NCBI GenBank assembly: GCA_028710895.1
Contig: JAQTTH010000001.1
Coordinates: 124,001 to 188,000, forward strand
Reading direction: 5' to 3'
Length of the DNA stretch: 64,000 nt
DNA from: Paludibacter sp.
GTDB lineage: Bacteria; Bacteroidota; Bacteroidia; Bacteroidales; Paludibacteraceae
The notes beneath the pieces are model-generated. The model saw only the letters and a list, made by a program, of their open reading frames with translations. It was not told the origin of the DNA and did no database searches. A program made the translations under genes and the position numbers. Shown here in pieces: positions 23,087 to 62,387 of this stretch; within the stretch, counting starts at the first letter, position 1, and each line of letters opens with the position of its first letter.

Positions 23087-23803
23087 TCAGGCTTTCGGAG
23101 CAGCATCCGTTTTACCACCTTTAGATGTACCGATTCGTTTCAGAATAGTAGTCAGGGTATAATCACTCACCTTGGTAGCATCCACACCTTTGTAAATCGC
23201 TTTACCGGCATCGGTTACGAATACGTTCATATCCCAGAGGTCATTGAAAACAGCAATATTTTCGTCGGTATGGCGGTTACGTTCCGTAATCTTAAAGTTT
23301 TGGTCATTACCTAACTGCTCCACATCGTCGGCCAATTGGGTCAATTCAACCACGAAAGCCGCTTTAAGCCCTTTGGTCTGAAGTACTGCTGCATTATTGT
23401 TTACTCCTACCAACAGGCGACGTACCTGAGCCACTATACCTTCCGAATTTCCATTTTCTATACTGTCACGTACAAGTTTAGTTCCAATAGCCTTTGCGCT
23501 AACTGTCATTTCACCATCAGCCATATCCAGGTATACATCCAGCTTATTCAGTTTTAGACGAAGTGCTTTAATTTTGTCACTAATCTGAGCCGTAATTGTT
23601 GTGATCTCCTTTGTGAGCACATCCGACGAAATCAGTTGAGTAGATTGAGTGGTCTTCGCAACCAACCCTGTTACATAATCTTCGGAAAAAGCATCCGAAA
23701 ATTCAATAAAATCAGCCAAATCGGCCCGCAACCGTTGAGCCAGATAACCTGCCACTGCTGGCACATCTTCCAGTTTACACGTAAATTTTCTTTTTTCATT
23801 CAT
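23087..23803 (-). CDS. Unknown acidic all-helical protein beside a 21-bp repeat array
   Basis: I do not recognise a domain of known function. The 238 residues have no signal peptide, no membrane segment and no cysteines. They are rich in A, L, K, D and E, with heptad-like stretches such as DKIKALRLKLNKLDVYL and LTQLADDVEQL, so a helical bundle is likely. The tail is low complexity (SKGGKTDAAPKA). The conserved-looking segment ERNRHTDENIAVFNDLWDMN resembles stretches I recall from hypothetical proteins found in several copies in Bacteroidota; I cannot verify that here. A tandem 21-bp array begins about 55 bp before the start codon. The gene at 60133 has the same size, character and context. 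Confidence 0.75.
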   Translation of the reverse strand: MNEKRKFTCKLEDVPAVAGYLAQRLRADLADFIEFSDAFSEDYVTGLVAKTTQSTQLISSDVLTKEITTITAQISDKIKALRLKLNKLDVYLDMADGEMTVSAKAIGTKLVRDSIENGNSEGIVAQVRRLLVGVNNNAAVLQTKGLKAAFVVELTQLADDVEQLGNDQNFKITERNRHTDENIAVFNDLWDMNVFVTDAGKAIYKGVDATKVSDYTLTTILKRIGTSKGGKTDAAPKA

Positions 23804-23857: not shown

Positions 23858-24067
23858 GTATTGTCTTCGGCTGTTCGAGTACGACCATCCGGTGTGATAG
23901 TACGACCTTCAGGTGGGCCAGTATCATCAACCGGCATGATAGTATGACCATCGGGCGTACGAGTACAATCAACCGATATGATAGTATGTCCTTCAGGTGC
24001 GATAGTACGACCTTCCGGCATGATTGCATGACTATCCGTTGTGTCTGCACGATCATCAGCAATATAT
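23858..24067 (-). repeat. Degenerate 21-bp tandem repeat array (array A)
   Basis: Ten contiguous 21-bp units begin at 23858, 23879, 23900, 23921, 23942, 23963, 23984, 24005, 24026 and 24047. On the plus strand most begin GTAYGAYC and end ATGATA; on the gene strand the core is CCGGAWGGTCRTAC. The outer units are the most diverged. No spacers separate the units, so this is not CRISPR. Because 21 is a multiple of 3 the array stays open in some frames (heptapeptides such as PEGRTIT), but nothing suggests translation. The remainder of the gap to 24368 is AT-rich with no gene. Confidence 0.9.
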
Positions 24068-31091: not shown

Positions 31092-32345
31092 TCAATGATT
31101 TATATTTTCTAATTTGCTTGGATCATGTTTATGCTTAAAAAATACGGCAAATAATACTGCAACTACGAGCGCATATGCCGCAAAAGTGAACCAAATCCCC
31201 TGCCATTGAAAGTCACCATTTTCTGCTTTAAAAAAATGATCGATTAATAGACCACTTAATGAACTTCCCATTATAGCACCAAACCCGTTTGTCATCATCA
31301 TAAATACACCTTGTGCACTGGCTCTGATACTCGAATCGGTTTGTGTTTCAACATATAAAGAGCCTGATATATTGAAAAAGTCAAAGGCCATACCGTAAAT
31401 AATACACGAAAGAATAATCATCCAAAGCCCATCGGCTGGATTTCCAAAACCAAATAGTCCAAAGCGGAAAACCCACGCAATCATACTGAAAAGCATCACT
31501 TTTTTAATTCCAAATTTTCTCAGGAAGAAAGGTATTGTCAGAATAAAGAGTGTTTCGGACATTTGCGATATCGACATGATAATGGCCGGATATTTTATTG
31601 CCGTGAGACCTTTATAAGCATCTATTTTTGCAAAATCATGTAAAAAAGTATCACCGTAAGCATTAGTTAGTTGTAAAGCTGCACCAAGCAACATCGAAAA
31701 TATAAAAAACAAAGCCATTTTGCTATCTTTAAACAGCGTAAATGCCTTAAGTCCAAGTGTATCTACCAAGGTCTTTTTCTCAACATTTTTACTTACATCG
31801 CACGTAGGTAATGTAAACGAATAAACACCAAGAATTAAAGCTGCAATAGAAGCTACATAGAATTGCATGGAAGATGTTTCAATTTTCATTAAACTAACAG
31901 TCCACATGGCAACTATGAATCCAATTGTACCAAAAACCCGAATGGGTGGATATTCCTTCACAATATTCATATTAGCTTTTTTCATAGCCGAATACGACAC
32001 GGTAATTGACAATGAAATGGTGGGCATATAGAACATCATATTTACCAACATCAGAGAGAACATCTGAGTTGGATTTTGCATCTGTGGCACCAAGAAGAGA
32101 CAAACGGCACCCAACAAGTGAAATGCACCCAACAGTTTTTCTGCATTTACCCAGCGGTCGGCAATTACACCGGCTAAAGCAGGCATAAACAACGATGCTA
32201 TTCCCATAGTTGAAAAAATGGCACCAAACTCGGTGCCTGACCAACCTTTATTTTGAAACCAATAACCTCCGATTGTAATTAGCCATGAGCCCCAAATGAA
32301 GAACTGCAAAAAGCTCAAAAGCGTAAGACGAAACTTTAATCCCAT
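31092..32345 (-). CDS. Nucleoside:H+ symporter, NupG/XapB-type major facilitator
   Basis: A 12-helix inner-membrane permease of 417 residues. The start LRLTLLSFLQFFIWGSW-like segment, the GIASLFMPALAGVIADRW motif near 50-66 and PPIRVFGTIGFI near 135 are typical of the nucleoside:proton symporter family. The C-terminus is a short basic cytosolic tail (FKHKHDPSKL). It lies 24 bp after the bifunctional-nuclease-type gene and so probably shares its transcript. The exact nucleoside range cannot be read from sequence. Confidence 0.9.
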   Translation of the reverse strand: MGLKFRLTLLSFLQFFIWGSWLITIGGYWFQNKGWSGTEFGAIFSTMGIASLFMPALAGVIADRWVNAEKLLGAFHLLGAVCLFLVPQMQNPTQMFSLMLVNMMFYMPTISLSITVSYSAMKKANMNIVKEYPPIRVFGTIGFIVAMWTVSLMKIETSSMQFYVASIAALILGVYSFTLPTCDVSKNVEKKTLVDTLGLKAFTLFKDSKMALFFIFSMLLGAALQLTNAYGDTFLHDFAKIDAYKGLTAIKYPAIIMSISQMSETLFILTIPFFLRKFGIKKVMLFSMIAWVFRFGLFGFGNPADGLWMIILSCIIYGMAFDFFNISGSLYVETQTDSSIRASAQGVFMMMTNGFGAIMGSSLSGLLIDHFFKAENGDFQWQGIWFTFAAYALVVAVLFAVFFKHKHDPSKLENINH

Positions 32346-59666: not shown

Positions 59667-59689
59667 AAACTCATGATCTATAAACAAAG

Positions 59690-59720
59690 AAGGCTTCACA
59701 AATTATTTGTGAAGCCTTTT
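59690..59720 (+). terminator. Terminator of the glycosyl hydrolase-like gene
   Basis: Arms AAGGCTTCACAAA and TTTGTGAAGCCTT with a 3-base loop and a TTTT end, 23 bp past the stop. Confidence 0.85.
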
Positions 59721-59745
59721 CTGTTTAAAAACCGAATACTATCTC

Positions 59746-60018
59746 GACACATCGGAATGACATCTCAACACATCCGAATGACAACTAAACACATCGGAAT
59801 GACAACTCAACACATCGGAATGACATCTCAACACACCCGAATGACGTCTCAACACACCCGAATGACGTCTCAACACATCCGAATGCCGTCTCAACACATC
59901 GGAATGACATCTCAACACATCGGAATGACAACTCAACACATCGGGATGACAACTCAACACATCGGAATGACGTCTGAACAATAGCGAATGACGTCTCAAT
60001 ACTACCGGAAGCCATTTT
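59746..60018 (+). repeat. 21-bp tandem repeat array (array B)
   Basis: Thirteen head-to-tail 21-bp units from 59746. Units 1-11 are nearly identical (core ACATCGGAATGAC, then ATCTC, AACTC or GTCTC); units 12 and 13 (59977 and 59998) have decayed. Alternation of CGG with CCG and of the last five bases is the main variation. There are no spacers. The array ends 44 bp before a perfect promoter for the next gene, so it is upstream of, not inside, that transcript. Confidence 0.95.
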
Positions 60019-60061
60019 ACACATTAACCACATTTTTTTTTGAAAGTTTTTTGTATTTTGT

Positions 60062-60092
60062 TTTGTTATCTAAAAAATTATATTTAGTTTTG
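60062..60092 (+). promoter_or_regulatory. Promoter of the helical protein gene beside array B
   Basis: TTTG (60062-60065), 19-bp spacer, TAGTTTTG (60085-60092), 41 bp before the ATG. Both boxes are exact. Confidence 0.7.
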
Positions 60093-60132
60093 AGGCGTTA
60101 ATTTTAAGTACTCACGATTAAAAAATTCAGAC

Positions 60133-60819
60133 ATGAACACTTTTCAAAATTCTCTCCTCAACTCGTACAAGCTGATTGTTGTCGAGTCGAAAAAAAGCCC
60201 CGAAATTGTGTCATTAATTCCAAAGTTTGACAAAGGAATTACACAGTTGAACGAAATTACCACTGAGATTGACAGTTTACGTATTCAGCAGGCCAAAAAT
60301 ATCAAGGGGATTACCCAGGATAAAAATGATCGGTTAGAAGAATTAGGCGATTTTATAATTGATGTGGCCGGGGCCATACACTCGTATGCCGTGGAAAAAG
60401 GCGACAAAACGCTGCAGGCAAAGGTCGATTACAAAATCAACAAGGTACACTCGATGAAACAAGGCGAACTTAAAACGGCGGCGGGCATAGTACTCGAAGA
60501 AGTCGCTAAATTACCTGCAACTGCCCTCACTGAAGAAGGTATTACTGACGAAGAAATGACAGAATTTGAAGCCTTGTACAACGATTTAAAAGACACAACC
60601 AACGGCAACCGCGAAGCTGTGATTGAACGCTCAAGCCACACCGACCGCATAGCAGAGCTATTTGCCCAAGCTGCCAGTCTGAAGAAAAACACACTCGACC
60701 GCCTTGCCACTCAGTTTCAACGCAAAGCTCCGGAGTTTTACCAGCGATACAAAGATGCCTCTACCGTTATTTACCGACGTGCTCCAAAAAGCAGCAACAC
60801 ACCCGAAGTAAAAGCGTAG
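60133..60819 (+). CDS. Unknown acidic all-helical protein beside 21-bp array B
   Basis: I recognise no domain of known function. The 228 residues lack a signal peptide, membrane segments and cysteines. Heptad-like stretches (ITQLNEITTEIDSLRIQQAK near 36, DDEMTEFEALYNDLKD-like near 150 and LFAQAASLKKNTLDRLATQF near 180) indicate a helical bundle or coiled coil. The end is low complexity (APKSSNTPEVKA), as in the gene at 23087-23803. The two proteins do not align obviously, but they share size, composition, a disordered K/A-rich tail and an upstream 21-bp array. The protein is likely cytosolic. Confidence 0.78.
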   Translation: MNTFQNSLLNSYKLIVVESKKSPEIVSLIPKFDKGITQLNEITTEIDSLRIQQAKNIKGITQDKNDRLEELGDFIIDVAGAIHSYAVEKGDKTLQAKVDYKINKVHSMKQGELKTAAGIVLEEVAKLPATALTEEGITDEEMTEFEALYNDLKDTTNGNREAVIERSSHTDRIAELFAQAASLKKNTLDRLATQFQRKAPEFYQRYKDASTVIYRRAPKSSNTPEVKA

Positions 60820-60857: not shown

Positions 60858-60923
60858 CTCTCCGATAATTCCTCCAACAAACCCATAATTGTTGGAGGAA
60901 TTTAATTATTTATTATCGGGGAG
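60858..60923 (+). terminator. Nested hairpin after the array-B gene
   Basis: An inner stem of 14 bp (AATTCCTCCAACAA with TTGTTGGAGGAATT, 60867-60880 and 60889-60902) lies inside an outer stem of CTCTCCGATAA with TTATCGGGGAG (one mismatch). The inner stem alone would serve as terminator. Confidence 0.6.
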
Positions 60924-60947
60924 GTAGGCAAATTAAGAAATAGTATT

Positions 60948-60955
60948 TATCTTTG
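60948..60955 (+). promoter_or_regulatory. -7 box of the small exported protein gene
   Basis: TATCTTTG, 20 bp before the ATG at 60975. It makes the in-frame TTG at 60960 an unlikely start. Confidence 0.5.
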
Positions 60956-60974
60956 GAACTTGATAAAGAAAAAC

Positions 60975-61667: not shown

Positions 61668-62387
61668 ATGAAAAAAATCAGCAAATTATATGTTCTTACT
61701 TACATTTTTCTAACATTAGTTTTTGCAATATTTACTGGCTGTACAAAAATAGTGGATCTACCAGATGGTAGCAGTATAGAAACTGTAAAAGACAAAGATG
61801 GAAATGTTTATCATACAGTAAAAATTGGGACTCAAGTATGGATGGTCGAAAACCTGAAAACCACCCATTATCGCGATGGTAGTTCAATAGCCAACGTAAC
61901 CGACAATACTGCATGGGCTTCTTTATCTACAGGTGCTTGGTGCGATTACTCCAACTCCGCTGCCAATGGCACAAAATACGGACACCTCTATAACGGGTAT
62001 GCTGTCATCGATGTCCGCAATATAGCTCCCGTGGGATGGCATGTACCTACCGATGCCGAATGGACAACCCTTACCACATATCTGGGTGGTGAAGCGGTAG
62101 CCGGAGGTAAATTGAAGGAAACGGGAACGCTTAATTGGATAAGTCCAAACACTGGTGCCACCAATGAAGCTGGTTTTTCAGCTCTTCCGGGTGGTGGCCG
62201 TAGTAGCGATGGTCCATTCGATTACTTTGGCGGACTCGGCGGGTACTGGTGGAGTTCTACGCAGGTCGGTAAGAACTGCGCTTGGTACAGGGGAATGGGC
62301 TACATTGAAAGCCGCATATACAGGGCCAACTACGGCTTCGGCTTCGGGAATGGTTTCTCCGTGCGTTGTGTCAGGGATTCTAAATAA
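61668..62387 (+). CDS. FISUMP-domain lipoprotein
   Basis: The 239-residue protein has a lipobox (IFTGC, Cys25). It then carries a Fibrobacter succinogenes major paralogous (FISUMP) domain from about residue 48 to the end. Marks are VKIGTQVWMVENLKTTHYRDG, the YGHLYNGYAV segment, VGWHVPTDAEWTTL, GFSALPGGGR, WWSSTQ and the terminal FSVRCVRD. Such domains occur in large sets of secreted or surface proteins of Bacteroidota and Fibrobacteres; their binding role is not settled. The W, G and Y richness and codon bias match the family. No promoter with a full consensus is evident upstream. Confidence 0.9.
   Translation: MKKISKLYVLTYIFLTLVFAIFTGCTKIVDLPDGSSIETVKDKDGNVYHTVKIGTQVWMVENLKTTHYRDGSSIANVTDNTAWASLSTGAWCDYSNSAANGTKYGHLYNGYAVIDVRNIAPVGWHVPTDAEWTTLTTYLGGEAVAGGKLKETGTLNWISPNTGATNEAGFSALPGGGRSSDGPFDYFGGLGGYWWSSTQVGKNCAWYRGMGYIESRIYRANYGFGFGNGFSVRCVRDSK

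Follow-up and report, generated by a model that had tools for sequence, protein, structure and literature searches.

Tandem arrays with a two-helical-turn period and private units lie upstream of several protein gene families in Paludibacter and other Bacteroidales

Small proteins that bind tandem repeats of about 10-22 bp upstream of their own genes are known from the type II ParR-parC and TubR-tubC systems and from plasmid iterons, in which the repeats are operator and structural site in one and which are found on plasmids together with ParM or TubZ or with a replication initiator. Unlike these, the system considered here is chromosomal, occurs in many orthogonal copies and has no detectable sequence relation to them. 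Our starting point is a single locus in the window, the whole stretch of 64,000 nucleotides that was analysed (G000:C14:124001-188000), within a Paludibacter genome of 4.9 Mb. Proteins with the domain DUF6261 (PF19775), to which the window protein does not belong, resemble the window locus in having an upstream array with a two-turn period and, sometimes, a remote array with the same unit (hereafter a sister); the sole mention of DUF6261 in the literature searched is reportedly in a study of daptomycin resistance in Streptococcus oralis.

The nearest described system by mechanism is BldC of Streptomyces, a 68-residue MerR-like protein with many targets (PMC5859096), whereas the proteins described here are helical, span about 200-310 aa and have a unit each of their own. 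In arrangement, the nearest is the BrickBuilt minisatellite/MITE of Porphyromonas gingivalis, which has spacer-free intergenic tandem repeats of 23 nt at 19 sites, within a larger unit that has a leader and a tail, promoter elements and small inverted-repeat ends (PMC4596501). The present arrays share with it the spacer-free intergenic repeats of about two helical turns, the many loci in the same order and the promoter elements; however, BrickBuilt as described has one unit and no attached gene family, whereas here private units are tied to gene families, and dispersal of the BrickBuilt type was rejected for the window unit, which is found at just two genome places rather than many. BrickBuilt is cited in a further report (PMC5771137), and the two sets of 7-bp TAACTGA arrays in P. 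propionicigenes are a different feature (PMC4679880). No description of the layout set out below was found in the literature searched, which left aside most subscription journals.

At the window locus, all features of which lie on the forward strand, a terminator-like hairpin seen by eye at 59690-59719 (AAGGCTTCAC...GTGAAGCCTTT) stands 3' of the upstream GHL10 gene and 5' of the array; among 63 arrays such hairpins occur in the adjoining 130 bp on the 5' side of only 6, and in the 130 bp beyond that of 1, and so are no rule for arrays. The home array of 21-bp direct repeats runs from 59741 to 60018, and its TRF row (59741-59999; period 21, 12.3 copies, 89% matches) has a score of 355, the highest among the 11 TRF rows of the window. 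In the phase starting at 59746, 11 good units agree with the consensus AACACATCGGAATGACATCTC at 18-21 of 21 positions, and the two decayed, promoter-proximal units 12 and 13 at 15 and 12 positions respectively; the thirteen units of the earlier note thus stand if these last two are counted, and are otherwise eleven. Both TRF and the unit table bear out the spacer-free arrangement and the 21-bp period claimed there, the units abutting with no spacers of the CRISPR type between them. Unit 13 ends at 60018, 43 bp short of an exact promoter, TTTG-N19-TAGTTTTG, at 60062-60092 (TTTG at 60062-60065, TAGTTTTG at 60085-60092), which was read correctly in the earlier note and which we take to be of the Bacteroidetes -33/-7 type. 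The 700 bp upstream of the start codon give a self-match score of 187, compared with a maximum of 15 over 300 Markov shuffles. The gene itself (60133-60819) encodes 228 aa with an all-helical model and belongs to what we term family B; it is followed by a hairpin at 60867-60902, again seen by eye (AATTCCTCCAACA...TGTTGGAGGAATTT) and probably a terminator, and by a promoter-like element, AGAAATAGTATTTATCTTTGGA, at 60936-60957, which is also present behind two further family B genes of the same genome. Further downstream lies an ordinary FISUMP-domain (Fib_succ_major) gene (61668-62387). A second helical gene on the reverse strand of the window (23087-23803; 238 aa), presumably the locus A of the earlier note, belongs to family A, a remote homologue of family B, and has its own home array of 21-bp period upstream at 23876-24043, with a sister outside the window at G000:C5:78308-78514.

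The window protein gave nothing above cut-off in Pfam or NCBIfam and nothing at E<=0.01 in PADLOC or PHROGs, in keeping with the earlier statement that it is of no known family. Candidates rejected for it include a Phage Mu Gam-like protein (PF07352; E 0.7, 10.3 bits against a cut-off of 28.3), membership of DUF6261 (no PF19775 match at E<=1) and a ParR, TubR or Rep family (below cut-off in Pfam and NCBIfam, none in PHROGs). An AlphaFold2 model consists of helices only (mean pLDDT 81.8, pTM 0.50), and a Foldseek search with it returned no significant solved relative and no DNA-binding fold (best E 0.31). A C-terminal CarboxypepD_reg domain is matched by 10 of 28 aligned family B members (E<=0.1). 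The family is not especially basic, with a median pI of 6.8, and the acidic character ascribed to the window product does not extend to the family at large (10-90% range 5.2-9.4). Family B is present in 14 of 60 relatives and in 43 of 295 genomes of the order (the window's own genome being in both counts), often in several copies per genome, and the sources of the named relatives of the window gene (8 loci) are MAGs of Paludibacter and other Bacteroidales or Bacteroidetes. Neither plasmid records (72,556) nor phage records (50,697) contained a family B match (E<=0.01), a pattern-based scan of viral contigs gave no relative of the family, and plasmid records gave no match to family C (introduced below); a phage or plasmid origin was rejected on these grounds.

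Association between array and gene was examined in the relatives of the window gene, using the strongest self-match within 700 bp upstream at any of the 31 lags from 15 to 45, and counting a score of at least 20 as an array. From 101 located genes, 5 duplicates, 2 lacking a usable start and 3 of fewer than 180 aa were removed, and 86 of the remaining 91, having at least 400 bp upstream, formed the sample. An upstream array was found at 68 of these 86 genes, from about 40 genomes by our own count, and all 68 lags fall within 20-22 or 41-44; a further 8 genes score 15-19 and 10 score under 15. Downstream, 4 of 80 score at least 20, two of these at lag 21. Array and gene therefore belong together, as the earlier note had supposed, and its equation of the 21-bp period with two helical turns is supported; its alternative of a decaying minisatellite does not, as the whole story, fit arrays that are linked to genes in this way. 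The array ends 47-640 bp before the ATG in the 68 cases. Of 53 regions, 14 have a Bacteroidetes-type promoter between array and start codon, one base of one box being allowed to be missing, where 2.3 would be expected. Because the promoter sits between the two, the array is probably outside the gene's transcript, as had been proposed for the window locus.

The same layout recurs in further families, a breadth which, like the sister of the window array, the earlier note had missed. Profiles of families A and B align collinearly across 181-184 columns (hhalign probability 89%, E 2e-6), and by this collinear profile similarity the two form one superfamily. Homology of B and C is unproven (probability 10%, E 0.003, 66 columns), and the profiles of family B and DUF6261 show no homology (0.8% and 3%). 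For family A, 7 of 9 intact relatives have an upstream 20/21-bp array, one has none and one has it downstream, two broken relatives being left out of the count. Family C, whose members are of about 208 aa and helical with a sub-threshold fn3 match, has an upstream array in 28 of 29 distinct genes, against 3 of 29 rows downstream. Among DUF6261 genes (proteins of about 245 aa), 30 loci less 7 at which no gene was picked and 2 with less than 300 bp upstream leave 21, of which 19 have an upstream array, every lag being 41 or 42, compared with 2 of 23 downstream. In the window's own genome the best lag is 41 or 42 in all 12 DUF6261 copies, three of which score 20 or lower, and in genome G016 in 11 of 11, one of which scores 17. 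A possible fifth family, E, is represented by a single case in G016 (L318, C1:3572599-3573270, minus strand, 223 aa), with an array upstream at 3573444-3573663 and a sister at 606557. Families A, B, C and DUF6261 together account, by our own count, for 28 genes in the window's own genome.

A census served as a control. On C14, the 519,682-bp contig that holds the window, the upstream score reaches 20 or more at 20 of 368 genes, and all 8 family genes are among them (hypergeometric P 1.6e-11, which is no clean test, since DUF6261 and family C were first noticed through their arrays; the homologue surveys are the clean test). The contig has 11 long two-turn arrays, of which 7 are linked to genes and 4 are orphans, each a sister: that at 31747 shares its unit with a family C gene on C31, that at 99673 with the window array, that at 209106 with a family B gene on C21 that carries a frameshift (74% identity), and that at 277973 with a member of DUF6261 on C15. 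Across 400 kb of G016, arrays of at least about four 21-bp units or two 41-bp units were counted; the nine seen comprise 4 linked to genes, 1 family E sister and 4 unattributed, the last being 771556 and 860735 (one unit), 837124 and 989869. Scattering of arrays with no link to such genes, named by the earlier note as telling against its view, is accordingly not seen on the 520-kb contig, where all four orphans share a gene-linked unit; in G016, 4 of 9 arrays are unattributed. The G016 pair at C1:771556-771962 and 860735-860924 has one 22-bp unit in opposite orientation, with neither copy beside a known family gene.

Whilst the period is shared, the units are private. Amongst the matches listed, none connects the arrays of two genes, the near-duplicates L200 and L201 excepted, and of 1711 pairs of 21-bp arrays only 14 in the same orientation and 2 in opposite orientation exceed a similarity of 0.6, on which count a universal unit motif was rejected. 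Dyad symmetry was scored in arrays scoring at least 25, drawn from 49 DUF6261, 91 B, 28 C and 9 A loci. DUF6261 arrays have dyads in 19 of 38 cases at p<=0.05 and 8 at p<=0.01 (mean 6.3 of 8 pairs, null 5.0); the corresponding figures are 2 of 60 and 0 for family B, and 6 of 23 for family C and 1 of 5 for family A at p<=0.05, with 0 for both at p<=0.01. Were the arrays bound by protein, this pattern would fit DUF6261 proteins that act as symmetric dimers and family B proteins that recognise their units directionally. It bears also on the proposal, which we consider very improbable, that the array is read out in the form of an RNA or of a peptide of heptad repeats. Arrays of 21 bp do keep frames open, 59673-59984 in the window coding for 7-residue repeats, and DUF6261 arrays could form hairpins; however, arrays of 20, 22 and 41 bp break the frame, on which ground a coding heptad repeat was rejected, and the promoter comes after the array. 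RNA hairpins were likewise rejected, as family B arrays lack dyads and the dyad mismatches, 11 A-C against 13 G-T, are about equally frequent and so give no sign of a preference for RNA wobble pairs.

A conserved period with free unit sequence is also what would be expected if DNA shape mattered irrespective of sequence, the phased repeats bending or stiffening the DNA at these promoters in a way that is sensed by RNA polymerase or a general nucleoid protein. Curvature, calculated from wedge parameters, is slightly raised in family B over column-permuted arrays (the mean percentile being 0.65, with 9 of 63 arrays exceeding the 95th), but no excess is present in family C (1 of 22) or DUF6261 (2 of 34), and curvature as an explanation was rejected. 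The distance from array to promoter, moreover, ranges from 55 to 431 bp across the 14 family B regions with a promoter, and shape would predict neither the sisters nor a concentration of dyads in one family; we regard this explanation as improbable.

Array turnover outpaces protein change. The family A orthologues L058 and L059 (proteins 79% identical) and the family C pair L246 and L256 (74% identical) all have arrays, and within each pair the arrays have no similarity; it is only where proteins are more than about 50% identical that unit similarity follows their identity (Mantel 46 of 500). The DUF6261 genes L200 and L201, with 98% protein identity, have units that changed in concert within each array, and array and gene were duplicated as one 1.23-kb block that ends at the stop codon. 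An array on C24 resembles that of L201 over 156 bp at 90% and that of L200 over 109 bp at 76%. All 6 amino-acid differences between the two proteins lie in residues 172-192 (2 of 100,000 permutations), whilst synonymous changes number 1 within these residues, 5 flanking them and 11 elsewhere. The cluster may be a specificity switch or a conversion tract, the latter being possible because 5 synonymous changes flank it. In other pairs the differences do not cluster at this location, and a segment under positive selection was rejected, the case being a single DUF6261 pair with other pairs not clustering there. Some family C pairs differ most at residues of about 25-50 (L257/L261, 0 of 1000 permutations, unadjusted for many related pairs).

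The unit of the window array is found at two places in its genome, C14:183741 and C14:99673 (up to 3 mismatches in 30). The second is the sister array G000:C14:99626-100022, of 16.7 copies, which lies 84 kb away, 24 kb before the window, beside a caspase-domain (Peptidase_C14) gene and with no family gene; its other neighbour is presumably an alpha-L-rhamnosidase-like gene. The flanks of this sister match those of the home array over 21 and 23 columns, and nothing longer is shared. At G000:C21:119740-120457 a family B gene is split over two frames, with its upstream array retained and a sister on C14, which lies between genes that we take, from their sequence, to be kbl and tdh. Sisters keep the period class of the home array, 22 with 22 and 41 with 41 (TRF). 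In the window's own genome 20 of the 28 genes contributed arrays, those of the other eight, weak or found late, being left out; the 20 correspond to 19 units (L200 and L201 being near-duplicates), of which 13 have one detected sister, 6 none, one of these having only a 24-bp match, and 0 two, with 40 of 56 candidates scored; the units of L199 and L251 are counted only through an orphan array's match, and when they are left out 11 of 17 units have a sister. The units of G016 divide into 12 with no sister, 7 with one and 1 with two (40 of 50 candidates scored), and those of G015 into 5, 3 and 1; pooled over the three genomes, 23 of 48 gene-linked units have no detected sister, and the limited share of candidates scored in the first two means that sisters may be missed. 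One family A case in G016 is doubtful, its array being on the other side of a broken gene. At L327 (G016:C1:1170250-1170553), a 21-bp array behind a broken family A gene stands in an open frame with heptads, whether as coding sequence or by chance.

No unit was found at more than two further sites. The evenness of the sister counts was put at 0.004 in the window's own genome (19 units), 0.009 with G016 added and 0.012 overall, and after doubtful units were dropped the values are 0.014 (17 units), 0.72 for G016 alone and 0.054 for all (44 units, three genomes). A rule of one sister per gene was rejected as weak once these units are dropped, and 'exactly one' is only a hint. By our reading of the tables, sisters lie in convergent, tandem and divergent gene gaps alike, and promoter control of their neighbours was rejected on that basis. 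The G015 sister regions contain no relatives of the genes that flank the corresponding own-genome sisters; two of them have paralogue-like matches, of 48% and 24%, to genes near other sisters.

These observations bear on the main and serious rival to a protein-binding role, which we nonetheless hold to be rather unlikely, namely that array, promoter, gene and 3' flank form a mobile or self-copying cassette, the parts of which move or duplicate together. Sisters would then be gene-less copies, comparable to MITEs that accompany a full-length parent, and the array would serve at the ends of the element or in its replication rather than as a landmark for a protein. The L200/L201 block argues for such a cassette, as do sister sites that are unconserved in G015 and present in all kinds of gene gaps. 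At some loci, shared flanks and 3' pieces also favour a copied cassette that lacks its gene: the sister on C32 of the array labelled a9 has both home flanks, matching over 86 bp (86%) on the 5' side of the array and over about 110 bp (84%) 3' of the gene, but lacks the gene; L201 and its sister have 84 bp 5' of the array in common (93%), L258 and its sister 89 bp directly after the array, and L005 and L258 share with their sisters promoter-like pieces from behind the gene, of 41 and 54 bp. Three family B genes of the window's own genome, one of them the window gene, are followed after about 96-117 bp by the 22-bp element AAAAATAGTATTTATCTTTGGA with one mismatch; with four mismatches it also follows two family C genes. 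Against the cassette, 8 of 14 home-sister pairs are similar no further than about 30 bp beyond the array, and few family genes have the 3' element (4 of 84 in B, 2 of 27 in C, 0 of 48 in DUF6261, 0 of 9 in A). The proteins, furthermore, have no convincing transposase match, a mobile repeat would be expected at many sites, although the evenness of sister numbers does not clearly exceed that due to chance, and the fixed two-turn period with one array per gene in unrelated families is left unexplained. Promoter-like 22-bp elements at 60936-60957 in the window and at G000:C14:407185 stand at a similar distance behind their respective family B genes, and copies are also found beside sisters.

The explanation that we tentatively prefer, though we would put it somewhat short of an even chance, is that the array is a cluster of helically phased candidate sites for the protein encoded directly downstream. 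It draws on the family surveys, the fixed lags, the C14 census, the sisters, the private units, the dyads of DUF6261 and the concerted change at L200/L201; counted against it are the want of a known fold, the unremarkable basicity of family B, arrays that change faster than proteins, the 23 of 48 sisterless units, the unconserved G015 sister sites, the gene-less flanks of the a9 sister on C32 and the low-scoring family B genes. With one candidate binding site per two helical turns, about a dozen units would present themselves on one face of the DNA and could allow cooperative loading as a row or filament, and loading beside its own promoter could give the protein control of itself. The protein might also load on the remote array that carries the home unit, marking and, speculatively, joining two places on the chromosome, and private units would let the 28 such genes work in parallel with no cross-talk. 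An extension of this, which we regard with strong doubt, is that the roughly 28 orthogonal protein-array pairs per genome constitute a chromosomal address system, in which each protein coats home and remote array and holds the loci together, contacts being rewritten as arrays move.

As judged from sequence, the results suggest a little-known set of proteins, each recognising or travelling with its own DNA landmark. Several families of unknown function, DUF6261 included, gain a shared anatomical rule and a testable partner array. Were the arrays binding sites, they would offer a large natural collection of orthogonal protein-DNA pairs for studies of specificity and of chromosome organisation in Bacteroidales; were they parts of a mobile cassette instead, this would be a new kind of element with no recognisable transposase. 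In both cases, repeats commonly masked as noise show a gene-linked anatomy. Two smaller features of the arrays may be recorded. In the arrays of L064 and L050 there are signs that the 21-bp period is subdivided into 7 bp, either lags 21 and 28 being alike or TRF giving a row of period 7, and in G015 two remote arrays of one DUF6261 unit (L362 and L363) each abut a second, 42-bp array of another unit and so form composites.
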